Source of the DNA: an uncultured Clostridia bacterium
GTDB taxonomy: Bacteria; Bacillota; Clostridia; Oscillospirales; Ruminococcaceae
Direction: 5' to 3'
Assembly (NCBI GenBank): GCA_947600065.1
Contig: CANQFZ010000019.1
Coordinates: 1 to 36,679 of the forward strand
Length of the DNA stretch: 36,679 nt
The translations under genes and the position numbers were made by a program. The notes under the pieces were generated by a model. The model was given only the letters and a program-made list of their open reading frames with translations. It was not told the origin of the DNA and searched no databases. Position 1 is the stretch's first letter, and every line of letters begins with the position of its first letter. This document shows positions 7,586 to 25,986 of this stretch, piece by piece.

Positions 7586-8248
7586 ATGATTGATCTAAGG
7601 AACATAACAAAGGTCTACAATCCCAAAAAGCACAATGAATTTACGGCGCTTGACGACGTAACATTGAAGATAAGCGACGGGGAATTCTGCGCTGTTATAG
7701 GAAAATCGGGTTCGGGAAAATCTACGCTTCTTCACATAATAGCATTGCTCGATAAATTTTCTTTCGGCGATTATTTCCTAAACGGAAAGGACGTTGCGAA
7801 AACTCCCGAAGGCGCCGCGGCAAAATACCGCGCGAAAAACATCGGCTTTGTAAAGCAGGATTTCGCGCTTATTGAGGACTACACCGCGCTCGACAATGTA
7901 ATGCTCCCACTTTATCCGATAAAAGCAAAGGACAAAAAGAAAAAGGCGCTTGCGGCACTGAAGAAAATGGGCATAGAAAGGCTTTCGGAAAAGGAAACGC
8001 GGAAGCTCTCGGGCGGCGAAAAACAGCGCGTTGCCATTGCGAGGGCAATCGTAAACGAGCCGAGCATTATCCTCGCGGACGAGCCGACGGGTTCACTTGA
8101 CAGCAAGACCGCCGCGGAAATTATGAACGTATTTAAACAACTTAATGCCGAAGGAAAAACCGTTGTTATCGTAACGCACGACCAAGGTATCGCAAAGCAA
8201 TGCAACAGGATAATTGAAATCTCGGACGGGAAGATAATTTCGGCGTGA
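7586..8248 (+). CDS. ABC transporter ATPase, LolD/MacB family
   Basis: A 220-residue ATPase. Walker A is GKSGSGKST, the Q-loop is in FVKQDF, the signature is LSGGEKQRVAIARA, Walker B is IILADEPTGSLD and the switch His is in VTHDQ. The family powers FtsX-type permeases such as the two genes before it. AGGAGGG lies 7 nt upstream of the ATG. Its last 36 or so nucleotides (to the TGA) are identical to the 3' end of the ATPase at 14206 although the proteins are only about half identical elsewhere, a sign of gene conversion or duplication. Confidence 0.93.
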   Translation: MIDLRNITKVYNPKKHNEFTALDDVTLKISDGEFCAVIGKSGSGKSTLLHIIALLDKFSFGDYFLNGKDVAKTPEGAAAKYRAKNIGFVKQDFALIEDYTALDNVMLPLYPIKAKDKKKKALAALKKMGIERLSEKETRKLSGGEKQRVAIARAIVNEPSIILADEPTGSLDSKTAAEIMNVFKQLNAEGKTVVIVTHDQGIAKQCNRIIEISDGKIISA

Positions 8249-8288
8249 ACAGAATTAAAAACGTGCAAACAACAAAAAGGAGAAAACA

Positions 8289-9146
8289 ATGAACGCTACG
8301 TTTAAACAGGCAATACTCAACAAGTACAACATTATAGCTTTTTTGTTTGTCCCTATTGTGAGCTTTTTTAGCTGGGCGCTAACTTGCGACCTGTTTAACA
8401 TTTTAAAGTTTTCAAAAACAATGGAGGAATATCGGGGAGTACCCGCTTGGGAATATATCAGAACCGTCACGGGTTTCTTTTCTTATGCCGTTTGGGGATT
8501 TTCTTTCATGCAGATTTTGATACCGCTTTTGGCGTCGTTTGTTACTCTTCCTTTTCTGCGTGAAAAAAGAATGTTCAATTTCTCATACGCACGAGAGGAA
8601 AGCTATAAGAAAGCTGTTTTAAAGCCGATGCTGAGACAGCTTATTATAGGCTGTACGGTATTGTTTCTCGGCTATATGGTCTTTCTGACTGCGGGTCTTA
8701 TATGGGGAATAGATCCCGAATCATCAGGCGGTCGTGTGTTTATGCCCGAGATCTTCGGAAGTGATTTTGTACATGATAATATGTTTATGTTCTTTGTGGT
8801 AGACGGATTCTGGAAATATTTTGTATTCTGCTTTGTGTACGGACTGTTTTCAATTTGTATATCCTTTTACACAAAGAAAAACTTTTTGTGCCTTATAATC
8901 CCGACCGTTTATTATCTTGTCTTCAATATAATTCTTTCGGGCATAGGAGAAATAAAACTTTTTGGCGGAATGACTATTGATCTTGCTCTATTTGCACCGA
9001 GCTATCCTATAATGTCGGGGGCGCGCAATTGGGTGTCTATCCCGCAGGTCATTATCCCGCTGCTGCCGCCGCTGATATTCAGCCTGATCACTCTTTACAG
9101 GGAATTTTCCGTAAAGCAAAAACGAAATGACGTCTATGCCGTTTAA
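8289..9146 (+). CDS. multi-pass membrane protein, ABC-2-like permease
   Basis: A 285-residue integral membrane protein with about six hydrophobic segments (near 16-36, 62-92, 113-137, 170-195, 200-222 and 250-272). I do not recognise a named family. The topology and its place ahead of another membrane protein and an ATPase indicate an ABC exporter permease. AAAGGAG lies about 6 nt before the ATG. It follows the 7586 ATPase by 40 nt, so it may be read on the same transcript. Confidence 0.75.
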   Translation: MNATFKQAILNKYNIIAFLFVPIVSFFSWALTCDLFNILKFSKTMEEYRGVPAWEYIRTVTGFFSYAVWGFSFMQILIPLLASFVTLPFLREKRMFNFSYAREESYKKAVLKPMLRQLIIGCTVLFLGYMVFLTAGLIWGIDPESSGGRVFMPEIFGSDFVHDNMFMFFVVDGFWKYFVFCFVYGLFSICISFYTKKNFLCLIIPTVYYLVFNIILSGIGEIKLFGGMTIDLALFAPSYPIMSGARNWVSIPQVIIPLLPPLIFSLITLYREFSVKQKRNDVYAV

Positions 9147-9170
9147 TAATTTCGGCGGAGGTTTATTGCT

Positions 9171-9899
9171 TTGATAAAGGACAACAAGAATATGCTTAGC
9201 TTGATAATACTGTATATACTTCTTTGCGCAGTTTCGGTCTTTTTGCTCAACGGCTCGGGGATACTGCAATTTACCGACGCGGGTTTCTTTGACTATCTGA
9301 ACATATTATTTTTCAATTCGGAAAAGTTCTCTCAATATAACATAAAATGGAACATCATAAGCGCAATGCACTTTTTTCTGCTGTTGTTTTTCGGAGTTAT
9401 TTACTGCTCGTCCTCTGCAAGGAACTATTGTGCGGGAATGAACCAAATGGAGCTTATCCGTTATGAAAAATATGAAAAATATTTCTTTTCCTGCAACTTC
9501 AAAAACGCTTTGAACGCGCTGAAATTTGTCTTAATGACCGCGCTCCTGCCGCTGAGCATAGTATTTGTAAACTCAAAGGCATTGACAAGTTTTGATTCGG
9601 TCATAGGCGAAACGTTGGCAGAAAACATTTTTAACACAGCGATTTTTTTAGTAAAGATATTCGTGCTTTTGATGCTTATTGAGCTTGTCTTTCTGATAAT
9701 GATACGAAAGCGCGGCTATCAGTTCTCGCTTTCGATAATGGCTGCGGCGACGGCTGTTATAGTATTTTCCGACAGCCTTTTGAAAACGGGAGCTGTTACT
9801 ATGGGAAACATTGTAGATCAACTTATCGCAGCAGGCGTTTACATTGCGTTATATTTAGTGCTTTATTTTATATTCAGACGTGAACCCAGATCACTTTGA
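9171..9899 (+). CDS. multi-pass membrane protein, ABC permease partner
   Basis: A 242-residue membrane protein with about six segments (near 8-27, 62-80, 118-137, 158-182, 186-205 and 213-236). The TTG start is chosen because GGCGGAGG lies 9-10 nt upstream; an in-frame ATG at codon 8 is the alternative. It sits between the 8289 permease and the 9912 ATPase with short gaps, so the three probably form one ABC-2-type exporter. The substrate is unknown. Confidence 0.72.
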   Translation: MIKDNKNMLSLIILYILLCAVSVFLLNGSGILQFTDAGFFDYLNILFFNSEKFSQYNIKWNIISAMHFFLLLFFGVIYCSSSARNYCAGMNQMELIRYEKYEKYFFSCNFKNALNALKFVLMTALLPLSIVFVNSKALTSFDSVIGETLAENIFNTAIFLVKIFVLLMLIELVFLIMIRKRGYQFSLSIMAAATAVIVFSDSLLKTGAVTMGNIVDQLIAAGVYIALYLVLYFIFRREPRSL

Positions 9900-9911
9900 C
9901 AGGAGAATAAT

Positions 9912-10553
9912 ATGGAAAATATCATCACACTCGAAAATGTAAGCAAAAAATACAAGGACAGGACGATTTTAGAGAATTTGGATTTCGCCTTTGAAAAGGA
10001 GAAATGCTATGGAATTATCGGAAGGAACGGCAGCGGAAAAAGCGTTCTGTTAAAGCTTATCGCGGGCTTTGCTTATCCCGACAGCGGCAATATAACCATA
10101 CGCGGCAAGCAACTGAAAAAGGACATTGATTTCGCTGACGACGCGGGAGTTATCATAAACTCGCCCGAATTTATAAACAGTATGTCGGGGCTTAATAACC
10201 TGCTCTACCTCGCCGATATAAGAAAGAAAATCAGCAAAGAAAAAATAATAGAAGTTCTTAGAGAGCTTGGTCTTGAAAATGCGATGAAAAAACGTGTTTC
10301 TACCTATTCGCTGGGTATGAAACAGCGGCTCAGACTTGCTCAGGCAATAATGGAAGAACCTAGTCTGCTTATTCTCGACGAGCCTATGAACGCCCTTGAC
10401 GACGACGGCGTAAGCGAGATAAGAGAGCTGCTTTTGTCGCTGAAAAAAGAAGGCAAAACCATAATCCTCACATCGCACAACTCCGACGATATAAACATTC
10501 TGTGCGACAGCGTCTGCTCAATCAGCAAGGGGAAGTTTGAAAAAATAAGATGA
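9912..10553 (+). CDS. ABC transporter ATPase, CcmA/ABC-2 type
   Basis: A 213-residue ATPase. Walker A is GRNGSGKS, the signature is YSLGMKQRLRLAQA, Walker B is LLILDEPMNALDD and the switch His is in LTSHN. The LGMKQR signature is typical of ABC-2 exporters, unlike the LSGG of the two LolD-type ATPases nearby, which fits pairing with the two membrane proteins just upstream. CAGGAG precedes the ATG. Its stop directly abuts a decayed fragment of another ATPase gene. Confidence 0.92.
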   Translation: MENIITLENVSKKYKDRTILENLDFAFEKEKCYGIIGRNGSGKSVLLKLIAGFAYPDSGNITIRGKQLKKDIDFADDAGVIINSPEFINSMSGLNNLLYLADIRKKISKEKIIEVLRELGLENAMKKRVSTYSLGMKQRLRLAQAIMEEPSLLILDEPMNALDDDGVSEIRELLLSLKKEGKTIILTSHNSDDINILCDSVCSISKGKFEKIR

Positions 10554-10697
10554 GCGGGAAATGAAGCCATGGACTTGCTCGCAAAAATGAACCGCGAGCA
10601 GCACAAAACTATCGTCATAATAATACACAATCCCGAAATTGCTGAAAAGTGTTCGAGGACTGTTGAAATTTCGGACGGAAAGATAATTTCTGCATGA
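10554..10697 (+). pseudogene. 3' fragment of a LolD/MacB-type ATPase gene
   Basis: This 144-nt stretch begins right after the 9912 stop. It reads in frame as the last 46 or so residues of an ATPase (MDLLAKMNREQHKTIV, then EISDGKIISA and TGA). It aligns without gaps to the 3' end of the gene at 14206-14862 (14721-14862). The switch-His region reads IIIHNPE where the intact gene has IITHNPE. No Walker A, signature or Walker B remains, so it cannot work as an ATPase. The 29 or so nt after its stop also match the spacer after the 7586 gene, so the fragment and spacer came from a duplicated module. Confidence 0.85.
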
Positions 10698-10724
10698 ACA
10701 GAATTAAAAACGTGTAAACAACAA

Positions 10725-10753
10725 TTGACAAATCAATATAACGGTGCTATAAT
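10725..10753 (+). promoter_or_regulatory. promoter of the lipoprotein-permease-ATPase operon
   Basis: Perfect TTGACA (10725-10730), a 17-bp spacer and perfect TATAAT (10748-10753), 42 nt ahead of the lipoprotein gene. It lies just downstream of the ATPase gene fragment. Confidence 0.85.
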
Positions 10754-10794
10754 ATAACTAAGATTTAACTATACAAAGGAGCAAACGTTATACT

Positions 10795-11472
10795 ATGATA
10801 TTATCAAAACACCTGAAAAAGCACATCAAAAGCGCACTGTCTTTGATTTTGGCGGCGTGTATTCTGTCAGCCTGCTCTGAAATGACCGATATAGACTGGG
10901 ATATCAACGGAGATTACTTATCATTTTTTTCTTTTCAGTATGAGGTTTTTGAAACGCCAAAGGAACTTGCAGACATGGCGGATATGGTCTTTATCGGAAA
11001 AGTCAAGTCTTTGTCGTTTGAAATACTTGATTTTCGTACAGGACTTCCTCCGACAGAACAAACAGATGAAGATGATAAAATTTTGTATACAAATTATACG
11101 GTCGAAGTTCTGACATCGTATAAAGGCAACGCTTCGGGCACTTTTACCTTTAAAGAATACGGCGGAGTAAGAGACAGGTATATTGACGAGCAAATTAAAG
11201 CGCTTACGGCGATAAAAGAACATCCGACCATAAGCGATATTCCTGTTTGCGAATATGATAATTACATAATCGAAGAAGGACATACATATTTGTTTTCACT
11301 GGATAAGCTTAACAGCGGTTTCTTTTCTTTATTGAATCCCGACAAACAAAGCGCTTTTCCGATTGAAAACGTTGAAGAAAAAGATCAGTACGGATATCTT
11401 TCGGTTAAAGATGTTATCTCATATTTCGGAGAAGATAAGTGGAACGAATTTAAAACAGGATATGTTGACTGA
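10795..11472 (+). CDS. lipoprotein of unknown function beside an FtsX transporter
   Basis: A 225-residue predicted lipoprotein. It has a basic N-terminus, a hydrophobic stretch and lipobox LSAC with C27, then an acidic extracytoplasmic domain with no family I recognise. It contains a segment, PDKQSAFPIEN, that reappears in a gene fossil at 14863-14916. The signal sequence (KKHIKSAL and following) closely resembles the N-terminus of the permease gene that follows (KKHVKSAL). The GGAG ribosome site is 13 nt from the ATG, unusually far. The next gene has almost the same leader with a normal gap, so a small insertion is likely. It probably binds or presents substrate for the transporter. Confidence 0.8.
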   Translation: MILSKHLKKHIKSALSLILAACILSACSEMTDIDWDINGDYLSFFSFQYEVFETPKELADMADMVFIGKVKSLSFEILDFRTGLPPTEQTDEDDKILYTNYTVEVLTSYKGNASGTFTFKEYGGVRDRYIDEQIKALTAIKEHPTISDIPVCEYDNYIIEEGHTYLFSLDKLNSGFFSLLNPDKQSAFPIENVEEKDQYGYLSVKDVISYFGEDKWNEFKTGYVD

Positions 11473-14931: not shown

Positions 14932-14997
14932 ATATAGAGCAAGAAGTTTTTGAGAAGATTATTGCGCATTATCAAAGATAGGGAAAGGAAATCGTCT

Positions 14998-16635
14998 ATG
15001 GAAACCGTAGAAATACTCGCGCTGGTTTGTTCGGGGATAAATGTCGTTCTGCTGATAATTATGCTTGTATTGCAAAGCAAAAGGAAAACCGACAGCCGAC
15101 AGGAAAAAATTGAAGAAGAGATAAGCGAGCTGTCTCAGGGCATTGAAGCTTTAAAACAGCAGTCCGAATTAAACTCCAAAACGCTTATGGACGAGGTGAG
15201 CAGAGTAAATAACTCTGTTGTCAATAATATTTCAATGCTCGGCGACAATCTTCGCGGCTCTCAGGAATTGCAGCAGAAAAACGCAAACGAAAAGCTCTCG
15301 CGGCTTGAAAGCGAGTTTTCAAAAATAAGCGGCGATATATCCGCATCTCTTGAACAGATAAGAAGATCAAATACCGAAAGCATGGACAAGCTTCGCGGCG
15401 AAAATCAGCAGAGCCTTGACAGGATAAACAACAACGTAAACGAAAAGCTTTTGAAGCTTGAAAATGACTTTAACAAAATCCGCGAGGATATACTTGCTTC
15501 TCTCGAAAGCTCCAGAAAGCAAAACTCTGCAGATACGGAAAAGCAACGTGACGAAAACCGCCAGAGCCTTGACAGGATAAACAACAACGTAAACGAAAAG
15601 CTTTTAAAACTTGAAAATGACTTTAACAAGATACGCGAGGAAATTCTTGCTTCGCTTGAAAGCGTCCGCAGATCCAACAGTGAGAGCATTGAAAAGCTCC
15701 GCACCGAAAACCGTCAGAGCCTTGACAAGATAAACGACACGGTAAACGAAAAGCTCCAGAAAACGCTAAACGACAGGCTCACCCAGTCGTTCTCGGCGGT
15801 TAACGAGCGTCTTGAACAGGTACATAAGGGGCTTGGCGAGATGAAGAGTGTTGCGTCGGGAGTTTCAGACCTCAAAAATGTTCTCTCAAATGTAAAGACA
15901 AGAGGCAATCTGGGAGAGATACAGCTCGGCGCTATACTGGATCAGATACTTGCTCCCGAACAGTTCTGCTCACAGCAGGCTGTTGTTCCAAACGGCAGCG
16001 AAAAGGTAGACTATGCGGTAAAGCTTCCAAGCTCGGACAAGAACGATTTTATGTATCTGCCTATAGACTCCAAATTCCCACAGGACAGATATTCGGATCT
16101 CCTTGAGGCATATGAAAGCGGAGAGCCCAACGCCGTAAAGGAAAAGCGAGCGGCTCTAGAAGCGGAGATAAAGCGCGAAGCAAAGAGTATTCACGACAAG
16201 TATATAGCTCCGCCCTACACAACGGATTTCGCGCTTATGTTCCTGCCGTCGGAGGGACTTTATGCCGAAGTGATAAAAATGGGGCTTGTGGAAGCTTTGC
16301 AGAACAATTATAGAGTTAATGTCTGCGGTCCGTCTACAATGGCGGCAATGCTGAACAGCCTGCAGATGTGTTTCCGAGCCGTAGCTATTCAGAAGAAAAG
16401 CGGCGAGGTGTGGAAAATTCTCGAAGCGACAAAGAAAGAATTTGCGTCGTTCGGAAAAGTGCTTGATTCTGCGAGAAACCGTTTGAGACAAGCGGACGAC
16501 GACCTTGAAAAACTTATCGGGACGCGTTCGCGCGCTATTGCGAGAAGTCTTAGAAGCGTTGAACAGCTTGAGGGCGACGACAGCAACATTTTGAAGCTTG
16601 AAGATGACGGCATTTCGGACAGTGACGACGAATAA
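14998..16635 (+). CDS. rmuC: RmuC-family DNA recombination protein
   Basis: A 545-residue RmuC homologue, a family linked to limiting inversions and rearrangements at inverted repeats and carrying a PD-(D/E)XK-like nuclease fold. One N-terminal membrane segment (about 6-24) is followed by a long coiled coil (about 30-290) and the conserved RmuC domain (about 300-500: KTRGNLGEIQLGAIL, PIDSKFP, LMFLPSEGLYAEV). The ATG at 14998 is preferred over an upstream in-frame TTG because AAAGGAA lies 7-8 nt before it and the membrane segment follows directly. The coiled coil contains 51-residue repeats: DRINN at 141, DRINN at 192 and DKIND at 243, with a weaker unit before. The surplus length over typical RmuC proteins is due to this expansion. 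Confidence 0.93.
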   Translation: METVEILALVCSGINVVLLIIMLVLQSKRKTDSRQEKIEEEISELSQGIEALKQQSELNSKTLMDEVSRVNNSVVNNISMLGDNLRGSQELQQKNANEKLSRLESEFSKISGDISASLEQIRRSNTESMDKLRGENQQSLDRINNNVNEKLLKLENDFNKIREDILASLESSRKQNSADTEKQRDENRQSLDRINNNVNEKLLKLENDFNKIREEILASLESVRRSNSESIEKLRTENRQSLDKINDTVNEKLQKTLNDRLTQSFSAVNERLEQVHKGLGEMKSVASGVSDLKNVLSNVKTRGNLGEIQLGAILDQILAPEQFCSQQAVVPNGSEKVDYAVKLPSSDKNDFMYLPIDSKFPQDRYSDLLEAYESGEPNAVKEKRAALEAEIKREAKSIHDKYIAPPYTTDFALMFLPSEGLYAEVIKMGLVEALQNNYRVNVCGPSTMAAMLNSLQMCFRAVAIQKKSGEVWKILEATKKEFASFGKVLDSARNRLRQADDDLEKLIGTRSRAIARSLRSVEQLEGDDSNILKLEDDGISDSDDE

Positions 16636-16692: not shown

Positions 16693-16719
16693 TTAGCACT
16701 CTCAAAACGAGAGTGCTAA
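16693..16719. promoter_or_regulatory. CIRCE operator (HrcA binding site)
   Basis: TTAGCACTC (16693-16701), a 9-nt spacer and GAGTGCTAA (16711-16719): a perfect match to the CIRCE consensus. The HrcA repressor binds here and releases on heat or misfolding stress. It places hsp20 in the class I heat-shock regulon, which usually contains groESL and dnaK. The hrcA gene is not in this window. Confidence 0.97.
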
Positions 16720-16808: not shown

Positions 16809-16883
16809 ATGAATTTAAAGAGGACAACGGCAAATAATACTACAGTAAAGAATATATTTTTAGGAGGTATGTTTTATGTTTGA
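16809..16883 (+). CDS. small leader ORF overlapping hsp20
   Basis: A 24-codon ORF (MNLKRTTANNTTVKNIFLGG and four more residues) with AAAGGA about 9 nt before its ATG. Its stop (TGA, 16881-16883) overlaps the first codons of hsp20, and the hsp20 ribosome site lies inside it. The arrangement would allow translational coupling of hsp20 to a leader peptide. It is very short and could be chance. Confidence 0.35.
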   Translation: MNLKRTTANNTTVKNIFLGGMFYV

Positions 16884-17325
16884 TCTTAGACCTTATCGCA
16901 GAATGAACGACGCTTTGTACAACCCGTTCAATGAAATGGAAGAATTTGAAAGAAAGTTCTTTGGAGACTCACCGTTTTTCCGCAGCGGCGATATTGCGGA
17001 ATTTAAGACGGACATCACCGACGAGGGCGACCATTTTGTGCTTGAAGCGGATCTGCCGGGATTTGACAAGAAGGACATTCATCTTGACATCACCGACAAC
17101 ACGCTGACTATAAACGCCGAGCGCCACTCGGAGCATGAGCAGAAGGACAAGAAGGACAAATACGTCCGTATCGAGAGGTCATACGGAAAGTACAGCAGGC
17201 AGTTTGATATTTCGGGGATTGAAGCCGACGGTATCAAGGCGAAGTATGACAACGGCGTATTGACGCTTAATTTGCCGAAAAAGCAGGAGAAAGCTCCCGA
17301 AGCAAGACATCTTGAAATCGAATGA
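16876..17325 (+). CDS. small heat-shock protein, Hsp20/alpha-crystallin family
   Basis: A 149-residue ATP-independent holdase chaperone that binds unfolding proteins in the cytoplasm. A short N-terminal arm (MFDLRPYRRMNDALYNPF) is typical of clostridial Hsp20. The alpha-crystallin domain spans about 40-135 (FVLEADLPGF, LTINAERHSE, YGKYSRQFDI, YDNGVLTLNLPKK). The usual I-x-I C-terminal motif is weak or absent here (ARHLEIE). AGGAGG lies 7-8 nt before the ATG. Expression is controlled by the perfect CIRCE operator upstream, so it should rise on heat stress. Confidence 0.96.
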   Translation: MFDLRPYRRMNDALYNPFNEMEEFERKFFGDSPFFRSGDIAEFKTDITDEGDHFVLEADLPGFDKKDIHLDITDNTLTINAERHSEHEQKDKKDKYVRIERSYGKYSRQFDISGIEADGIKAKYDNGVLTLNLPKKQEKAPEARHLEIE

Positions 17326-17330
17326 CGACC

Positions 17331-17364
17331 AAGGGGTAAACCTTTTGAAAAAGGTTTACCCCTT
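17331..17364. terminator. strong hairpin after hsp20
   Basis: AAGGGGTAAACCTTT pairs with AAAGGTTTACCCCTT (about 15 bp, loop TGAA). It begins 6 nt after the hsp20 stop. There is no T-tract after it, so it may stabilise the mRNA 3' end or terminate inefficiently. Confidence 0.6.
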
Positions 17365-17370
17365 GAACTA

Positions 17371-17770
17371 TTAGAGGTTAGAGATTAGAAGTAAGAGGTA
17401 AGAATTTGTTTTGAGCGGCGAGGTGCTTATCCTTTTTAAACCACCTTACGGGCGGGCGCACGAAAGTTTTTTGAAAAGGGTTTCCAAAGGGAAAAAATTT
17501 TTTTCAAAAAATTTTTTCCCTTTGGTCGCGGCAAAGCCGCGAAATATCGCAAATTAGCGCATCAGATTAAATGCCTGCGGCATTGAATCCGGGGTGCGGG
17601 GAAAACAAGAGTTTTCCTGCTAGAGGTAAGAGGTTAGAGATAAGAGGTAAGAAATTCAAGGAGCTTTTTAGAGTGAAAGTTTTTTGGCTTTCAGAAAAAG
17701 AGGCTAGAGGCTAGAATTTGAGTGGAAAAGTCGTTTTCTGCTTATAACAAATTCTAGCCTCTTGCCTCTT
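17371..17770. repeat. heptad repeats and hairpins in a 531-bp gene-free stretch
   Basis: Heptad units TTAGAGG/TTAGAGA/TTAGAAG/TAAGAGG occur at 17371-17404 and again at 17621-17652. GAGGCTAGAGGCTAGAATTTG at 17700-17720 is opposed by AAATTCTAGCCTCTTGCCTC (from 17749), forming an inverted repeat. Between them, 17484-17525 is a perfect 20-bp hairpin, and 17526-17620 holds short GC-rich palindromes (CGCGGCAAAGCCGCG). No ORF is convincing. The arrangement looks like several intergenic elements stacked between two operons. Confidence 0.7.
17484..17525. terminator. perfect 20-bp stem hairpin
   Basis: CCAAAGGG-AAAAAA-TTTTTT pairs perfectly with AAAAAATTTTTTCCCTTTGG around a 2-nt TC spacer. Hairpins of this A/T-cored form are common between clostridial genes and can act as bidirectional terminators. 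Function here is inferred. Confidence 0.5.
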
Positions 17771-17788
17771 CTTTTTTAAATTTTCATA

Positions 17789-17817
17789 TAGACTTTTACT
17801 CACTAGTGTGGTATAAT
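17789..17817 (+). promoter_or_regulatory. promoter of the SWIM-MoxR-vWA operon
   Basis: TAGACT (17789-17794, 4 of 6 matches to consensus), a 17-bp spacer and TATAAT (17812-17817), 40 nt before the first start codon. It is the only good -10 ahead of the operon. Confidence 0.65.
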
Positions 17818-17856: not shown

Positions 17857-19326
17857 ATGATGATGAAGAATATCACCGAACAGCTTATTCTGTCGCTTGC
17901 GCCAAATTCTGCCGCGGCGGCAAACGGGAAAAAGATCTCGTCGGGCGGCGGGTTTATAAACCGCTTTCGCTCGGAGGACGGAACGTTCTTTATGGGCGAA
18001 TGTAAGGGCAGCGGGAAAAATCCTTATGTCACTTCCGCCGACTACATAGACGAAAACCACCCCGTTTTTCGCTGTTCTTGTCCGAGCAGGCAGTTTCCGT
18101 GTAAACATTCGCTGGCGCTTATGTATGAGATGATGACGGACAAGGAGTTCAGCATGTGCGAAATACCCGAGGATATTCTCTCAAAGCGCGCGAAACTTGC
18201 GGCAAAAGCGGCTAAAGCAGAAAACGCCGAAACAGCAGAAGCTGAACAAACCGAAAAGAAAAAAGCCGCCGCAAAGAAAACGGCAAGCTCCGCAAAAAAG
18301 AAAAAGTTCAAAAAACAGCTCGAAGGTCTCGAGCTTTGCGAAAAGGCAATAAAGGAGCTTATTTCGGCAGGTCTCGGAACAATGGGCGGCGCGTCACTGT
18401 CAAACTATCAAGAGCTTTCCAAACAGTTCGGCGACTATTATCTTATCGGCATTCAGCGACTGTTCAACCGACTTATAATAGAAATAACCGAGTATCAGAA
18501 GGATAATCTCGAAAGTCATTATGACGCGGCAATTGACACTCTTGAAAAATTAAATTCACTTATCAAGAAGTCGAGAAAGTATATCACAGAAAAAATCGAT
18601 AACGACGATCCCGCGCTCGACGATACGGCGCTTTATGAAGAGCTCGGCGGGAATTGGAAACTCACCGAGCTTGAAGCTATAGGCAAATGCGTGAAGAACG
18701 CGAGAATGGTACAGCTTTCTTTTTGGGTAAACTTTGACGACGCGAGAAAGGAATACATAGAAACAGGCGCTTGGATCGAGCTTAACAGCGGAAAGATCTA
18801 TCTCACAAAGAACTTCCGCCCGCTTAAATCTCTGAAACATATTAAAGCGGACGATTCCGTTTTCGGCGCGGCGGATATCCCCGTTATGGCGGTTTATCCC
18901 GGAGAGGGCAATGTCAGAGCGCGCTGGGACAACGCAAGTTTTTCGGAACTTAGCGCTGAAGATTTCAGCAAATTGCGCTCGTATGCTTCGACTTCTGTTA
19001 AAGCGGAAATAAAAAGCATTAAGAACTTTTTGCAGAACGCAATGTCAAGGCCCGTTATCTATAAGCTTATCGCTTTTTCGGAAGTAGATAAAGTCGGCGA
19101 AAAAACAGTTCTGAAAGCAAAAGGCGACGACACGGTTGAGCTAAAGGATTTTGACGAATACGAAACCATGACGGACCGTCTGAAAATGCTCCCCGACAAA
19201 AAACTTCTTGAAAACGGCGTTATGCTTTGCGGATTTCACTATGACAATGCCGAAAACAGAATTTGCGCACAGCCGATGTGCATTATTCCCGACAGCGAAA
19301 ACGCTGTAGTAAGACTGCTTTATTGA
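17857..19326 (+). CDS. SWIM zinc-finger protein
   Basis: A 489-residue cytoplasmic protein with a SWIM zinc finger, C73-x-C75-x6-C82-x-H84 (RCSCPSRQFPCKH), a fold that binds nucleic acid or protein. A conserved-looking N-terminus (ITEQLILSLAP, GRGF-like GGGF) precedes it. After it comes a low-complexity Ala/Lys/Glu linker (about 113-155), then a mostly helical region of unknown fold. Three consecutive ATGs start the frame; the third (17863) has the best spacing to GGAG. It is the first gene of a five-gene operon with a MoxR ATPase and a vWA protein, in which it is the likely target-recognition subunit. From memory E. coli YehQ plays the same positional role; the function of the whole group is not established. 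Confidence 0.87.
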   Translation: MMMKNITEQLILSLAPNSAAAANGKKISSGGGFINRFRSEDGTFFMGECKGSGKNPYVTSADYIDENHPVFRCSCPSRQFPCKHSLALMYEMMTDKEFSMCEIPEDILSKRAKLAAKAAKAENAETAEAEQTEKKKAAAKKTASSAKKKKFKKQLEGLELCEKAIKELISAGLGTMGGASLSNYQELSKQFGDYYLIGIQRLFNRLIIEITEYQKDNLESHYDAAIDTLEKLNSLIKKSRKYITEKIDNDDPALDDTALYEELGGNWKLTELEAIGKCVKNARMVQLSFWVNFDDARKEYIETGAWIELNSGKIYLTKNFRPLKSLKHIKADDSVFGAADIPVMAVYPGEGNVRARWDNASFSELSAEDFSKLRSYASTSVKAEIKSIKNFLQNAMSRPVIYKLIAFSEVDKVGEKTVLKAKGDDTVELKDFDEYETMTDRLKMLPDKKLLENGVMLCGFHYDNAENRICAQPMCIIPDSENAVVRLLY

Positions 19327-19338
19327 CGGAGGTAATTT

Positions 19339-21189
19339 ATGGATATAACTGCTATTTCGGAGCTTCGCGCACAGCTTCGCTCTGCGGCAATTTCGGGCGC
19401 TTCTCTGCTGTCGGAGAATTTCAGACTTAAAAGAGCGGTAGGCTCATTCGCGCCGCTAAAAGACACTTCTCCTGTTTTCGGGAAGATATACGAGCTTTCG
19501 AGCTCGCTTGTTTCGGAAAATTGCATTGACCCTGCGGGAACGCTCCTTGACGCGCTGTCGCTGACTGATTCGGTAATGACAACGCTTGCAAAAGTCGATG
19601 TTGAGGGAGAAGCCGAAAAGCTCCCTGTTTTTGAAGTTCCCTCAAAGATAACAAACGCGCCGTATTCGAGCCTGTCAAAGCTTATAAACGCGCTTACGGG
19701 CACGGGAAACGGTAACTATAAAATAATAACGGACGCTTTGCAAGAAGAACCCGAATTGTTCGAGGACTACCGCGTAAAGCCCGCGCTAGTCGAATGTCTG
19801 GGCGCGTCTTACAGCGAACAGTCGGTTCTTGCGTTCAATACCGTAAAGAGCATGGGAAAGACAATGCTCCCGCTTTTAAAATACAGCTTTGACCCGAAAG
19901 GCAAAAAAGGAAACGTAAGGCGCATTTTGCTTATTGACGAGTTTGGGGGAGCGGATGAAAACGACTTTTATCTGGAAAACATTCCGCTTACGGAAAAAGA
20001 CGTGAAAAAGCTTCTTGTCCGCGCTTTGAGGCATGACGCAAGCAACGCCGACAAGCTTATTGAACTTACACAAACCGAAAAAGGCGCGATAAAAGAACAG
20101 GCTTTCCACACGCTTGCAAGCCTTGACTGCGACAAGGCGCGGGAATTCTTTGAAGAAATGGAGAAGAAAAAACCGCAGGAAACCCTTACATACCTGACGT
20201 ACAGCCGTACCCCGTGGGCAAGCAGGCTTGCCGCGAAAATAGGCAACCGCCTTTTCGACAACAATGACGGCGGAAAGTACAAGATGAACGGCTTGGGGCT
20301 TGTGGACATTGATTATTATGCGTTTCAGGGGAAACTCGGAAAGGACGTTGTAGAATTTTTCAGAAAAGCCGCCGCCCCCGAAGACGCGGATAAGAAAGTT
20401 CTCCGCTCCCGCATAAGAGAGCTTATAAACAACCCCATTGCGGCAACTGTCGCAACAACGGGCGACCCCGATATGTGCGCCCTTGCTCTGGAGTTTGAGA
20501 AGAAATATCCAAAGCAGTTTGAAGAAAGCGCGTTTTTCGCGCATATTTTAGGCACTGACGACTGCACCGACTATTTCAAAAAGAAAATCCTCGAAGCAAA
20601 GGAACGCGCTCAGACTCAAAGCAACAAGGGCGTGTTCTACACTTCCGCGATGTCCTGCGTTCAACGTATAAAGTGCATTGACGGGAAGTATTACGTTCAG
20701 TTTAAAGTGTTTGACAGCCATACGGTCGCTGCGGAAGTGTACGAAACCTACACCGTTCCCATTTGCCAGCCCGTAAAGGAAAAATGGTTCGATATGTTTT
20801 TAAGCTGCGACTGGTATATGCCCGAGTATTTTGCAAGCGAACTGTACGACAGGAACGACAAAGAAATGCGCGAGAAGCTGAAACAGCATTTCTTTAATCG
20901 GGTAGTTTACAGCGAGGACTCTCTAAACTATCTTTTAATTCTGAAAGGTATGGGCTATACAAATATCGAGGGGCTTGTATTTGAATATTTCAAGGAAAAC
21001 CACATGAAGTTTAAGGACAAATACAGAGACGCGTTTAAATTCCTGCGGTTTGTTCCGAGCGATTATGAATACCTTTGCAAGGAAATTGACGATCTCGAAA
21101 ACTATGCCAAGGCTAACAACATAACGCTGAACCTTGATTTAGAGGATCTAAGGGAAGATATATATCATTACTGGGCACCTCAACACTAA
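19339..21189 (+). CDS. helical-repeat-like protein of the MoxR/vWA operon
   Basis: A 616-residue soluble protein, mostly helical, with regions reminiscent of HEAT-type repeats (for example LLKYSFDPKGKKGNVRRIL and ALRHDASNADKLIELT, about 170-260). No catalytic motif or membrane segment is seen. GGAGG lies 7 nt before the ATG, 12 nt after the SWIM gene stop. Proteins with helical repeats accompany SWIM, MoxR and DUF5682 genes in similar operons, so a scaffold or adaptor role is likely. The exact family assignment (for example DUF5691-like) needs a profile search. A CAGACTG element begins one base after its stop codon. Confidence 0.75.
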   Translation: MDITAISELRAQLRSAAISGASLLSENFRLKRAVGSFAPLKDTSPVFGKIYELSSSLVSENCIDPAGTLLDALSLTDSVMTTLAKVDVEGEAEKLPVFEVPSKITNAPYSSLSKLINALTGTGNGNYKIITDALQEEPELFEDYRVKPALVECLGASYSEQSVLAFNTVKSMGKTMLPLLKYSFDPKGKKGNVRRILLIDEFGGADENDFYLENIPLTEKDVKKLLVRALRHDASNADKLIELTQTEKGAIKEQAFHTLASLDCDKAREFFEEMEKKKPQETLTYLTYSRTPWASRLAAKIGNRLFDNNDGGKYKMNGLGLVDIDYYAFQGKLGKDVVEFFRKAAAPEDADKKVLRSRIRELINNPIAATVATTGDPDMCALALEFEKKYPKQFEESAFFAHILGTDDCTDYFKKKILEAKERAQTQSNKGVFYTSAMSCVQRIKCIDGKYYVQFKVFDSHTVAAEVYETYTVPICQPVKEKWFDMFLSCDWYMPEYFASELYDRNDKEMREKLKQHFFNRVVYSEDSLNYLLILKGMGYTNIEGLVFEYFKENHMKFKDKYRDAFKFLRFVPSDYEYLCKEIDDLENYAKANNITLNLDLEDLREDIYHYWAPQH

Positions 21190-21190
21190 A

Positions 21191-21369
21191 CAGACTGCCG
21201 ATAAAGCCCCATTAACAGACTGTCGATAAAACCCCATCTACTTCGTCAGCAGCAATAGCGTTTTCCGCGAAGCGGATAATGCGAACAGCCACAAAGGCTA
21301 GTTGCATTACTGCTTCAGCGTTGCATGCGAAGCGTTCAATGCGGTATCTGGGGCTTTCTCGACAGTCTG
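21191..21369. repeat. CAGACTG inverted-repeat element, copy 2, with an extra left end
   Basis: The full element spans 21216-21369. Its ends CAGACTGTCGATAAAA and CTTTCTCGACAGTCTG are complementary at 19 of 21 positions. An additional left end (CAGACTGCCGATAAAG) precedes it at 21191, giving a 25-bp tandem. The right 60 or so nt closely match copy 1 (3322-3450). The apical hairpin AGCC-ACAAA-GGCT (21287-21299) keeps the same loop as copy 1 but with a swapped base pair. It also holds a second small hairpin, TCCGC-GAA-GCGGA. It separates the second and third genes of the MoxR operon; a TATAAT just after it (21389-21394) might drive the downstream genes. Confidence 0.8.
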
Positions 21370-21409
21370 TAAGTTGATTTATTTACAGTATAATTTAAAG
21401 GAGAAAATT

Positions 21410-22492
21410 ATGGACAATTCGATTTTAAGGCTTCCCGCCGAACAGCTATTTGAAGATGAATTGAACGCCCTAATAAAAGCGGAGACAGACCCCGTTCCCG
21501 AGGGCTGGAGAATGTCGCCGAGGTCTGTTAAAACCTACATCTGCGGCGGCAAGGTCGGGAAAACCGTAATTACGCCGAAATATATCGGACATGAGCGTTT
21601 AGTTGAAATCGCAATAGCAACGCTCGTCACCGACCGCGCGTTATTGCTTATAGGCGAACCCGGAACGGCGAAGAGCTGGCTCTCCGAACATCTGACGGCG
21701 GCGATAAACGGAAACTCCTCCCGCGTTATACAAGGCACTGCAGGCACGACCGAGGAGCAAATTCGCTATTCGTGGAACTATGCCATGCTGATAGCAAACG
21801 GACCGTCCGAGCAGGCAATGCTCAAAAGCCCCGTCTTTACGGCAATGGAGGAAGGAGCTATCGCGCGTGTCGAAGAAATTTCAAGGTGCGCGTCCGAAGT
21901 TCAAGACACGCTTATCTCCCTGCTTTCCGAAAAGCGGATAAGCGTACCCGAACTGTCGCTCGAAGTTCCCGCTAAAAAGGGATTTTCGATAATCGCCACA
22001 GCGAACACCCGCGACAAGGGCGTAAACGATATGTCCGCGGCGCTTAAAAGGCGTTTCAATATCGTAGTCCTGCCCGCGCCCGAAACTCTCGAAGAAGAAA
22101 TGCACATTGTAAAAACGCGCGTAGAACAGCTTTCGGGAAGTCTTGACCTCAATGCCGCGCTGCCTAAAGACAAGGTTATAGAAAAGATCTGCACCATATT
22201 CCGTGAACTGCGCGGCGGCGAAACGCTTGACAAAAAGCAGAAAATAAAAGCGCCCGCGGGCGTGCTTTCTACCGCCGAGGCAATTTCGCTTTTGTGCAAC
22301 AGCATGGCGCTCGCGGGAAGTTTCGGAAACGGCGACATATCCGACGACGACATAGCCGCGGGGCTTCAAGGCGCGGTAGTAAAGGACGACAAGGACACCG
22401 TCGCATGGAAGGAATATCTCGAAAACATAATGAAAAAGCGCGGCTCGGAATGGAGCGGGCTTTACAGAGCCTGCAGGGAGCTTAACGAATGA
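21410..22492 (+). CDS. MoxR-type AAA+ ATPase (YehL-like)
   Basis: A 360-residue AAA+ ATPase of the MoxR branch, a family that acts as a chaperone or remodelling motor with vWA proteins. Walker A is G82-EPGTAK-S89, with Ala in place of the usual Gly before Lys. The Walker B region reads ARVEEISR, with Glu155 where Asp is usual. Sensor 1 is ATANTRDKG and an arginine finger is in LKRRFN. The ATG at 21410 is preferred because AAAGGAG lies 7 nt upstream; an upstream in-frame start would fall inside the repeat element. It overlaps the next gene by 4 nt (ATGA). The context with a vWA protein and DUF5682 supports a motor role. Confidence 0.9.
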   Translation: MDNSILRLPAEQLFEDELNALIKAETDPVPEGWRMSPRSVKTYICGGKVGKTVITPKYIGHERLVEIAIATLVTDRALLLIGEPGTAKSWLSEHLTAAINGNSSRVIQGTAGTTEEQIRYSWNYAMLIANGPSEQAMLKSPVFTAMEEGAIARVEEISRCASEVQDTLISLLSEKRISVPELSLEVPAKKGFSIIATANTRDKGVNDMSAALKRRFNIVVLPAPETLEEEMHIVKTRVEQLSGSLDLNAALPKDKVIEKICTIFRELRGGETLDKKQKIKAPAGVLSTAEAISLLCNSMALAGSFGNGDISDDDIAAGLQGAVVKDDKDTVAWKEYLENIMKKRGSEWSGLYRACRELNE

Positions 22493-24795
22493 GCGGCGTA
22501 AACTTTTTCGGCATACGCCACCTCTCCCCTGCGGGAGCGTTTTTCCTGCGGGAATTTCTCTGTGAAACAAAACCCGAGCTTGTCATAATCGAAGCGCCTA
22601 TGGATTTTGAAGATACCGTTTCGGACATTGTGCGCAGTGAAACTAAGCCGCCGTTTGCAATTCTCGCTTATACGCAGAGCGTTCCCATAAGGACGATACT
22701 CTATCCCTTTGCGGAATATTCTCCCGAATATCAGGCGATAAAGTGGTGCTATGAAAATAATGTAAAGCTGAAGTTTATGGACTTGCCGTCCGAAACTTTT
22801 CTTGCGCTTTCCGATGAAAGGATAAGAGAAGCAGAGCAGGACGCTGACGAGAATAATGAACAAGACGACAGCCCAAATGAACATAACGCCGAAACGACAC
22901 CCGACCAAAAGCCCGATGTTTACGAGCTTCTTTCGGAAAAAAGCGAGGACGGCTCGCACGAAACGTTCTGGGAGCGAACGCTCGAACACTGTGAAAATGC
23001 CGAGGCCTATCACCCGGGCGCAAACCTTTTCGGCGCAAATATCCGCGAATTGTCCGAAAAAAACGGTATTGACGAAAAGGAGACCGCCCTGCGCGAAAGC
23101 TGTATGCGAAGCGTGATAAGAAACGCGGTAAATAGCGGTATTTCTCCCGAAAAGATAGTTGTAGTAACGGGCGCATATCATGTCGAGGGGCTGAAAACGT
23201 GGGAAACAGATGAAGAAATGCCGACGTTTCCGAAACTGCAGTCGCTGCATACGCTAATGCCTTATTCATATTACAGGCTCTCAACGCGGTCGGGATACGG
23301 CGCGGGAAACAAAGCTCCCGCATATTATGAGCTTATATGGAACGGTCTTTGCCAAAACGACCGTTTTTATGCGGCGAACGCCTATCTTTCAAAGATCGCG
23401 GAGAAAATGCGCGAAAGCGGAAACGCCGCTTCTTCCGCGCAGGTCATCGAAGCGCTGAGACTATCAAAAACGCTTGCACAGCTCCACGGCGGAAATATAC
23501 CGACCCTTAGGGATATACGCGACGCGGCGACGACTTGTATAGGAGAAGGAAGTTTTGCCGCGATAAGCACGGCGGTCGCCGATACGGAGATAGGAACGCG
23601 CCTTGGAGAGATACCCGAAGGCGTTTCAAGAACCAGCATACAGGACGACTTTTACCGCCTGCTTAAAGAACTAAAGCTCGAAAAATACCGCTCCGTGACC
23701 GCGCAGGAACTGAAACTCGACTTACGCGAAAATTTAAGAGCAAGCTCGGAAAAGTCGGCGTTTCTCGACCTCAACCGCTCGTATTTTCTCCACAAACTGC
23801 GCGTTCTGGGAATTAACTTTGCGCAGCTTATCCCGTCAAAACAGGACAACGCCACATGGGCTGAAACATGGCAGATACAATGGACGACCGAATGTGAGAT
23901 AGTTCTTGTTGAAAGCGCGCTCAAAGGCGACACCATAGAGCTTGCGGCAGGGTTTGAGCTTAAAGAGAGCGTAGAAAACAAAGAGGATATTTCGATAATA
24001 GCAAAGGCAGTAGAAGACGCGTTCTGCTGTGGAATGTCAAATGCGGCGAGCTATGCGGTAAACGCGCTCCAAGCTGCGGCGGCGGACAATATCCCTTTCG
24101 AAGAAACAGCAAAGACCATGTTCAGCCTGTCAAACGTCATAAGCTACGGCGACATACGAAAAGCGGACTGCTCGGCGGTAGAGCCGATATTAAAACAGCT
24201 TTACTACCGCGCCTGCCTTATCATGAGTTCTTCGTGCATTTGTGACGACAACGCGGCAAAGGAAACGGCAAACGCGATAAATATGATAAACTCCGTGGAA
24301 CTCGCGCAGGGTTTTCTTGAAACGGAAAAATGGACAAAAGCGCTTTCGGAGGTATCGTTCCGCGACGACCTCAACACCGTGCTTTCTGGACTTTGCGCGG
24401 CAATTCTCCTCGAACGCAACAAGATGACGAACGACGAGCTGAAAACGGAAGTGTCAAGAAGGCTGTCAAAAGGCGTTCCCGCAGACCTCGGCGCAGGCTG
24501 GTTTGAGGGGCTGGCTATGAAAAACCGAAACGGACTTATTGCGAGGCTGTCGCTTTGGGAAAGTCTGGACGATTATCTTAAAGAGCTTGACGACGAGGAA
24601 TTTAAACGCGCGCTCGTGTTTTTACGCAGAGCGTTCGCGGATTTTTCTTCGGGCGAAAAGGACGCAATAGCCGAAAACCTAGGAGAGATCTGGGGACTTA
24701 ACAGCGAAGAAGTGAGCGAAGCGCTCAATGCCCCTCTTGACGCGGCTTCACAACAGGCTATAGACGACCTTTCAGGCTTTGATTTTGATTTGTAA
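22489..24795 (+). CDS. DUF5682-like protein of the MoxR/vWA operon
   Basis: A 768-residue soluble protein opening with FFGIRHLSPAGA (H11), then PELVIIEAP (E35) and, further on, VVVTGAYHVEGL (H231). This spacing of Gly-x-x-His, an acidic residue after a hydrophobic strand and a second His motif matches what I recall of the DUF5682 family. It resembles the EreA/ChaN/TraB-like fold, so an enzymatic N-terminal domain is possible. An acidic low-complexity insert lies at about 118-152, and the C-terminal 500 residues are helical. Its start overlaps the ATPase stop (ATGA). Size and place match E. coli YehM from memory. The reaction is unknown. Confidence 0.8.
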   Translation: MSGVNFFGIRHLSPAGAFFLREFLCETKPELVIIEAPMDFEDTVSDIVRSETKPPFAILAYTQSVPIRTILYPFAEYSPEYQAIKWCYENNVKLKFMDLPSETFLALSDERIREAEQDADENNEQDDSPNEHNAETTPDQKPDVYELLSEKSEDGSHETFWERTLEHCENAEAYHPGANLFGANIRELSEKNGIDEKETALRESCMRSVIRNAVNSGISPEKIVVVTGAYHVEGLKTWETDEEMPTFPKLQSLHTLMPYSYYRLSTRSGYGAGNKAPAYYELIWNGLCQNDRFYAANAYLSKIAEKMRESGNAASSAQVIEALRLSKTLAQLHGGNIPTLRDIRDAATTCIGEGSFAAISTAVADTEIGTRLGEIPEGVSRTSIQDDFYRLLKELKLEKYRSVTAQELKLDLRENLRASSEKSAFLDLNRSYFLHKLRVLGINFAQLIPSKQDNATWAETWQIQWTTECEIVLVESALKGDTIELAAGFELKESVENKEDISIIAKAVEDAFCCGMSNAASYAVNALQAAAADNIPFEETAKTMFSLSNVISYGDIRKADCSAVEPILKQLYYRACLIMSSSCICDDNAAKETANAINMINSVELAQGFLETEKWTKALSEVSFRDDLNTVLSGLCAAILLERNKMTNDELKTEVSRRLSKGVPADLGAGWFEGLAMKNRNGLIARLSLWESLDDYLKELDDEEFKRALVFLRRAFADFSSGEKDAIAENLGEIWGLNSEEVSEALNAPLDAASQQAIDDLSGFDFDL

Positions 24796-24810
24796 TCAAT
24801 AGGTGAACAT

Positions 24811-25986
24811 ATGGATAAAACGGTACAAATGCAGCGCTGGCGGCTGATACTCGGGCAGGAGAGCAAAAATCGCTTTGAAAAAATGGATATGCCCGCGCTT
24901 TCGGAAGAACAATTGCTTATGGACAGCGCCCTTGCTTCAATTTACAACAAAAGCGGTGAGGGTGGATTTGGAACGGGCGGCGGAAAAGGTCCGTCAAATC
25001 CGCAGATATCCCGCTGGCTCGGCGACGTAAGAACGCTTTTTGACAAGGAAATCGTAAAGGTCATTCAGAATGACGCGATGACAAGATGCGGACTGAAACA
25101 GCTAATTTTTGAGCCCGAGATACTCGAAAATGTAGAGCCGGATATTTCCCTTGCGTCCGCTATACTTACGCTGAAAGAAATGATACCCGACCGCTCAAAG
25201 GAAAGCGTAAGAGCGTTTATAAAGAAAATAGTCGACGACATAAATAAACTGCTTGAACAGGACATAAAGCGAGCCGTCACCGCCGCAGTAAATAAGCGCG
25301 AACACTCTCCCATACCGTCAGCGTCCGCGCTCGACTATAAAATGACTATCCGCAGAAATTTAAAGCACTATTCGCCCGAGCTTAAAACGATAGTTCCCGA
25401 GCATTTTTATTTCTTTGAGCGCGCCGCTTCTTCCGCCGCAAAAAAATGGACGATAATTTTAGACATCGACCAGAGCGGCTCTATGGGCGAAAGCGTTATT
25501 TTTTCATCAGTCGTAAGCTGTATTTTAGCGAGTATGAACGCGCTTAAAACAAGAGTTGTCGCGTTTGATACAAATGTAGTAGACCTTACGGACAAATGCT
25601 CCGATCCCGTAGACCTGCTCTACGGTTTTCAGCTCGGCGGCGGCACGGACATTGACAAGTCGGTGGCATACTGCGAGCAGTTTATTGACGACCCGAAAAA
25701 GACGCTGTTTTTCCTGATTTCCGACCTTTACGAGGGAGGAAACCGCGCCGCGCTTATAAGGCGAATAGAAGGAATGAAAGCGTCGGGAGTTACGGTAGTA
25801 TCGCTTCTTGCCATAGCCGACGGAGGAGCGCCGTTTTATGACGAAAGCGTCGCTAACAAGCTCGCAAAGCTAGGTATTCCCTGCTTTGCCTGCAATCCGC
25901 AAAAGCTCCCCGAATTGCTCGGGCTTGTGCTTAAAGGGCGGGATATTGCCGAATTTTCAAAAACCGCGTATAATGCGGGAAAATAG
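24811..25986 (+). CDS. vWA-domain protein with intact MIDAS (YehP-like)
   Basis: A 391-residue protein. An N-terminal helical region includes a Gly-rich linker (about 49-60, GEGGFGTGGGKG). A von Willebrand factor A domain at about 212-391 carries a complete metal-ion-dependent adhesion site: D220-x-S222-x-S224 (DQSGS), T279-D280 and D305 (ISDLYEGG). MoxR ATPases commonly pair with such vWA proteins, which bridge motor and target. AGGTG lies about 7 nt before the ATG, 15 nt after the DUF5682 gene. It is the last gene of the operon and meets a convergent gene 6 nt later, with no terminator seen between them. Confidence 0.92.
   Translation: MDKTVQMQRWRLILGQESKNRFEKMDMPALSEEQLLMDSALASIYNKSGEGGFGTGGGKGPSNPQISRWLGDVRTLFDKEIVKVIQNDAMTRCGLKQLIFEPEILENVEPDISLASAILTLKEMIPDRSKESVRAFIKKIVDDINKLLEQDIKRAVTAAVNKREHSPIPSASALDYKMTIRRNLKHYSPELKTIVPEHFYFFERAASSAAKKWTIILDIDQSGSMGESVIFSSVVSCILASMNALKTRVVAFDTNVVDLTDKCSDPVDLLYGFQLGGGTDIDKSVAYCEQFIDDPKKTLFFLISDLYEGGNRAALIRRIEGMKASGVTVVSLLAIADGGAPFYDESVANKLAKLGIPCFACNPQKLPELLGLVLKGRDIAEFSKTAYNAGK

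Follow-up and report, generated by a model that had tools for sequence, protein, structure and literature searches.

The five genes described here lie on the forward strand in the DNA of a gut bacterium, an uncultured member of the Clostridia, within a window (the whole stretch of DNA analysed) of 36,679 nucleotides. They are listed in Table 1 together with a promoter-like site ahead of them. The first-pass annotation had placed five rightward genes at 17857..25986, and its only correction concerns the MoxR gene, which most likely starts at the ATG at 21410, with GGAG before it, rather than at the TTG at 21302 given in the ORF list. In order, the genes are joined by a 12 bp gap, a 220 bp gap, a 4 bp overlap and a 15 bp gap.

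Table 1. Coordinates of the operon and its promoter-like site in the window
Feature	Position	Strand	Description
Promoter-like TAGACT-17-TATAAT ahead of the operon	17789..17817	+	read by eye; similar -35/-10 elements in several relatives
SWIM zinc-finger protein	17857..19326	+	489 aa; ddrT position; ORF call, Pfam, alignment
Fast-evolving helical-repeat-like protein (gene 2)	19339..21189	+	616 aa; ddrU position; not recognisable as DUF5691
MoxR-type AAA+ ATPase, YehL kind	21410..22492	+	360 aa; ddrV / yehL
DUF5682 protein	22489..24795	+	768 aa; ddrW / yehM; predicted alpha/beta N-terminal part and all-helical C-terminal part
CoxE-like vWA protein, MIDAS complete	24811..25986	+	391 aa; ddrX / yehP

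Profile searches upheld the family assignments first proposed for four of the proteins, with Pfam matches to SWIM (8.5e-5), AAA_5 (8.9e-38, for the MoxR protein), DUF5682 (1.3e-147) and VWA_CoxE (5.8e-42), but left gene 2 without a clear family. Its only match was to HEAT_2, weak (E 0.032) and below the Pfam cut-off, and DUF5691 was not matched in Pfam up to an E value of 1. A profile comparison of gene 2 with DUF5691 gave 6% probability over 57 columns, and the two otherwise share the same slot and a hint of helical structure. The SWIM finger, the P-loop and the full MIDAS that had been read from the letters alone were borne out by alignment. The SWIM ligands C73, C75, C82 and H84 were invariant in 48 rows. 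In the MoxR protein the Walker A residues G82, P84-T86 and K88, the Walker B residues E155-E156 and R214-R215 (the R-R of an LxRRF stretch) were invariant in 110 rows, while the MIDAS residues D220, S222, S224 and D305 of the vWA protein were invariant in 99 rows and T279 was present in 97 of them; the MoxR and vWA alignments both include some near-duplicate rows. The usual Walker B form of MoxR proteins is D-E rather than E-E, and in this family it read R-x-E-E-[IL]-[ST]-R in every one of the 110 rows, the window protein (21410-22492) included.

Upstream of the operon, an Hsp20 gene (16876-17325) is preceded by a perfect CIRCE-like repeat at 16693-16719, TTAGCACTC-N9-GAGTGCTAA, as read against the CIRCE consensus, and because of this repeat the Hsp20 gene is probably controlled by HrcA. 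A gene of the RmuC family (14950-16635; Pfam 2.1e-70) lies two genes upstream of the operon and adjoins the operon region in three close relatives as well (L046, L048 and L049). By eye, the intergenic stretches 17326-17790 and 21190-21409 are rich in repeats; the latter, between genes 2 and 3, contains an apparent inverted repeat and is perhaps an inserted element.

Distribution and gene order of the operon family

Scanning 84,980 species genomes confirmed at least 563 relatives among at least 594 candidates, and the best 80 were kept. Long flanks were available for 59 of these 80, and all five gene kinds were found together in 58 of the 59, where the fifth kind, besides MoxR, vWA, SWIM and DUF5682, was counted as a HEAT-type, DUF5691 or DUF4132 gene. 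The question raised by the first-pass annotation, whether the five occur together beyond close relatives, is thereby answered in the affirmative, and since at least eight phyla carry the set, for the most part with its gene order unchanged, the association goes far beyond chance. The sole exception among the 59 was a locus of Paenibacillus sp. 32O-W (L107), in which a SWIM or helical gene was not detected and DUF5682 and vWA form one open frame (7887-11450). Because the two are joined in this frame, the locus hints that the DUF5682 and vWA proteins may touch.

Two layouts were distinguished. Type A has the order SWIM, helical protein, MoxR, DUF5682, vWA, with the first two genes swapped in L085 and L200, and type B has the order DUF4132, MoxR, DUF5682, vWA, SWIM, or one near to it. 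Of 60 loci from the Bacilli, 39 were type A, and every one of the 39 had all five genes. Among the 21 type B loci all five genes were present in four and MoxR-DUF5682-vWA in the other 17, in which the fetched stretch ends soon after the vWA gene. A DUF5682 tree of 54 rows placed the 13 type B rows in one group (support 99/95) and grouped the window with Lachnospiraceae and its own genus. Some Paenibacillales carry both types in one genome, and both were seen together in G617, G685, G681, G571 and G063. In several relatives other genes are inserted between DUF5682 and vWA, namely those for an RtcB RNA ligase and HSDR_N proteins in one (L033:1965-4398), an HSDR_N gene in another (L044:4327-5529), and GyrI-like, LMWPc, methyltransferase, hydrolase, SUKH or PEBP genes elsewhere.

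Near copies of the window operon came from uncultured Clostridia bins labelled 'Lapin', which we read as rabbit. The window's genus is represented by 37 genomes, the window's own among them and several incomplete, and DUF5682 was present in 24. Elsewhere in the order it was found in one genome of 24, a patchy distribution. Among Bacillales, 8 of 397 genomes were above the cut-off, while for Paenibacillales the count was 167 of 296. Plasmid records matched in 36 of 72,556 cases, several of them megabase replicons, and among 50,697 phage records there was one match, an unverified phage-labelled faecal scaffold with MoxR-DUF5682-vWA. Viral contigs scanned by pattern gave 18 candidates, none of which was confirmed as a relative. 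The yehLMPQ genes were matched in 5301 of 5426 E. coli genomes, in 5162 of these at a cover of at least 80%.

Relatives in Deinococcus and Escherichia coli

The locus had been put forward as the best candidate for an undescribed system, and this it is not, for the set already has a name in the radiation-resistant Deinococcus. In the available text of PMC5552922 the ddrTUVWX genes of D. deserti (Deide_18730-18690) are described as five genes of unknown function that are radiation-induced, dependent on IrrE and under the DdrO repressor, and by our own reading of Table 4 of that source the DdrO motif (RDRM) stands at ddrTUVWX in D. deserti, D. gobiensis, D. maricopensis and D. peraridilitoris. 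As far as the text of PMC8072749 was available, the five genes are still listed with unknown function. According to the accessible part of PMC9510100, D. taeanensis has a gene of 78 residues between ddrV and ddrW, and we found the same 78-aa gene at that locus between MoxR and DUF5682; since its position fixes the mapping, ddrT to ddrX correspond to SWIM, DUF5691, MoxR, DUF5682 and vWA. The window shares with ddrTUVWX the gene order, the single strand and the families at slots 1, 3, 4 and 5, whereas slot 2 is DUF5691 in Deinococcus and an unrecognised helical protein in the window, and DdrO is a regulator known for the Deinococcus set and not for the window operon.

The likeness to E. coli yehL/yehM/yehP/yehQ that the first-pass annotation had pointed out is real. 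The E. coli set (with yehI and yehH) keeps the order of the MoxR-DUF5682-vWA core and also includes a SWIM protein, but the SWIM gene stands at the end, DUF4132-type genes upstream replace gene 2, and the E. coli DUF5682 falls in the separate tree group described above. E. coli molR we take to be the yehH region, beside yehLMPQ. MolR is described in the portion of PMC8533742 available as a member of the LexA regulon. In the accessible text of PMC3893208 seven MoxR subfamilies are distinguished, YehL being one, and E. coli K-12 has two MoxR proteins, of which YehL is again one. The features of this subfamily are present in the window, namely a MoxR gene followed by DUF5682 and CoxE-like vWA genes, and the E-E Walker B. 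YehL is a recognised subfamily, yet within the literature covered by our search a role for yehLMPQ was not found, nor was a function or mutant phenotype of the five-gene set. The term DUF5682 occurs in none of 5.39 million papers searched, and two papers name at least two of yehL, yehM, yehP and yehQ.

More distant likenesses are to NorQ-NorD, CoxD-CoxE and RavA-ViaA, in which a MoxR ATPase is likewise paired with a vWA protein that has a MIDAS, but which differ from the window family in its E-E Walker B; we know of no SWIM, DUF5682 or DUF5691/DUF4132 partners in those systems. A MoxR and vWA core is also shared with the MoxR-vWA ternary conflict systems, as these are presented in the part of PMC7159879 available, and a VMAP, beta-propeller or iSTAND third component was not seen among the Pfam matches of the five window proteins up to an E value of 1.

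LexA-type boxes upstream of the operon

In Bacillus and Priestia, AGAACATTTGTTCG-like boxes lie upstream of the operon near the promoter. The box test covered 60 Bacilli loci, eight from Bacillales (all those above the cut-off) and 52 from Paenibacillales, hand-picked from the 167 positive genomes. With gene starts taken as longest-ORF starts and control ORFs that may include spurious ones, the exact GAACN4GTTC motif stood upstream of 11 of the 60 first genes, against 1 of 182 control ORFs and 16 of 2400 random windows; when up to one core mismatch was allowed the counts were 35 of 60, 13 of 182 and 227 of 2400. We also scored promoters for boxes of LexA, the SOS repressor, with a matrix trained on lexA promoters only. 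These came from 27 genomes, most of which were in the test as well, though at a different gene; all 27 promoters were boxed with at most one core mismatch, 23 of them exactly. After two loci with short upstream DNA (L172 and L178) were dropped, 13 of the 37 type A loci of Bacillales and Paenibacillales and 17 of the 21 of type B reached at least 8 bits ahead of their first gene. Among control ORFs 2 of 179 did so, and among genes inside the operons 1 of 212; 24 of the 37 type A promoters scored below 8 bits. Many of these loci are related, and when counted as clusters at 70% identity a box was present in three of seven for type A and nine of ten for type B. The upstream neighbour lay on the same strand in 24 of the 30 boxed operons, so that few of the boxes belong to a divergent gene. 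A LexA box at the promoter is present, then, in part of the Bacilli members and in both operon types.

Two further sequences were searched for in 12 genomes. RGAACATAYGATCT was rare, with 11 places in 10 of the 12, two of them (L210 and L211) away from the fetched operon loci. CAAACATGTGATCT was likewise rare, with eight places, once in each of eight genomes; it is conserved near the -10 region of Paenibacillales type A promoters (for example L151, L152 and L170), and as a LexA box it was rejected, having two core mismatches and a score of 1.5.

Outside the Bacilli the picture was different. A GAACN4GTTC-type box was not found at the window or at 17 relatives of the same genus, the best matrix score being 4.1 for the window and 7.9 for its genus (L049). 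In that genus the LexA domain was matched weakly in a 130-aa frame of one genome (G000) and not matched in two others (G017 and G034), and SOS control therefore does not extend to the window; judged from these genomes, the genus may lack LexA. A good LexA box was not seen in Clostridia, Lachnospiraceae, cyanobacterial or burkholderial members, and the exact CTGTN8ACAG box was not found in a 20-kb stretch of the E. coli yeh locus. A score of 12.0 in Methylosinus (L025) was taken as chance, because the LexA box of that host differs from the one scored. LexA control of the operon seems to be unreported, in that only PMC5552922 combined LexA, SWIM and vWA among the papers listed. What is new here is this regulatory evidence, LexA-type boxes at the operon in lineages far from Deinococcus.

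Function of the operon

The reading we favour, with a probability of about 0.47, is that the operon represents the ddrTUVWX/YehLMPQ family in Clostridia and encodes a multi-subunit, ATP-driven MoxR-vWA remodelling machine made upon DNA damage. In such a machine the MoxR ring would power remodelling and the vWA protein would couple that ring, through Mg2+ at the MIDAS, to the DUF5682 and helical proteins; these two would hold the client, and the SWIM protein may guide the whole to nucleic acid or to a partner in repair. The proposals of the first-pass annotation that the SWIM protein would choose the targets and that DUF5682 would be an effector enzyme are guesses. In the genus of the window the damage-response role is one that we infer, and damage regulation does not prove a role in repair. 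The operon family itself is real, conserved and already named, so that the locus is ordinary as a sighting and the regulatory convergence is the more interesting part. The window, Deinococcus, E. coli and Bacilli sets are linked as one family, and with damage-type boxes found far from Deinococcus its role becomes testable in E. coli K-12 or in a Bacillus relative.

A different use of the same parts would be the maturation of an enzyme by a chaperone that inserts a metal or cofactor, as NorQ-NorD, CoxD-CoxE and RavA-ViaA do. The CoxE type of the vWA protein and the MoxR type of the ATPase fit this, such a role is known for MoxR-vWA pairs in the available text of PMC9976466, PMC13036017 and PMC3893208, and MolR has been tied to molybdate use in the sources as far as available. 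We consider it somewhat unlikely, as damage-type control in Deinococcus and Bacilli would not be expected of such a chaperone and a metalloenzyme did not stand out among 100 flanking genes, whose Pfam matches were mixed (the first 25 of 122 families being those listed). The heat-stress counterpart, a general proteostasis module tied to the neighbouring Hsp20 gene through its CIRCE-like element, we hold to be very improbable: besides the window, Hsp20 was seen to adjoin the operon in 3 of 20 mapped same-order loci (again L046, L048 and L049, some others being too short upstream), and a separate promoter-like site lies between the Hsp20 gene and the operon.

A role in conflict, against phages or otherwise, like that of the MoxR-vWA ternary systems would be in keeping with the match of the MoxR protein to bpMoxR (2.4e-8, above its cut-off), and with its weak matches to MadB_ATPase (5.1e-11, far below cut-off and the best of the NCBIfam and PADLOC matches) and to PADLOC mad8 (0.0038). 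The fast evolution of the helical gene and its duplication, the RtcB or HSDR_N genes within the operon of some relatives, the patchiness in the window's order, the mad2 and mad3 matches of flanking proteins and the single phage-labelled scaffold also point in this direction. Against it, none of the other four proteins was matched by PADLOC. The first-pass annotation had asked whether the genes cluster with defence genes, and there was little sign of it: among the 100 flanking proteins compared with defence models at 1e-10, mad2 and mad3 matched two each and mad5 and restriction-modification models matched single members, these being raw counts from the first 25 of 105 families and without a random-gene baseline. 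The near-universal presence of yehLMPQ in E. coli and the failure of the viral-contig scan to confirm a relative argue against anti-phage defence, and with a single match among the phage records we regard a conflict system as distinctly improbable.

The remodelling machine made upon DNA damage can also be drawn more widely, although in this form we think it rather unlikely to hold. It would then serve bacteria in general as a damage-response machine, which evolution has brought under the control of unrelated damage repressors (DdrO for Deinococcus and LexA for both Bacilli types), with DUF5682 as a catalytic or client-processing subunit that has a TraB-like alpha/beta active site (R10-H11, E35, E80, D98, R202-E203 and H231), and with the fast-evolving, duplicated helical protein as an exchangeable client adaptor. 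A profile comparison of DUF5682 with TraB scored barely above unrelated controls, and fold searches with the whole DUF5682 model, which is predicted to consist of an alpha/beta part followed by helical repeats, returned results filled by the helical repeats. The fast-evolving helical gene has been duplicated up to three times in some relatives.
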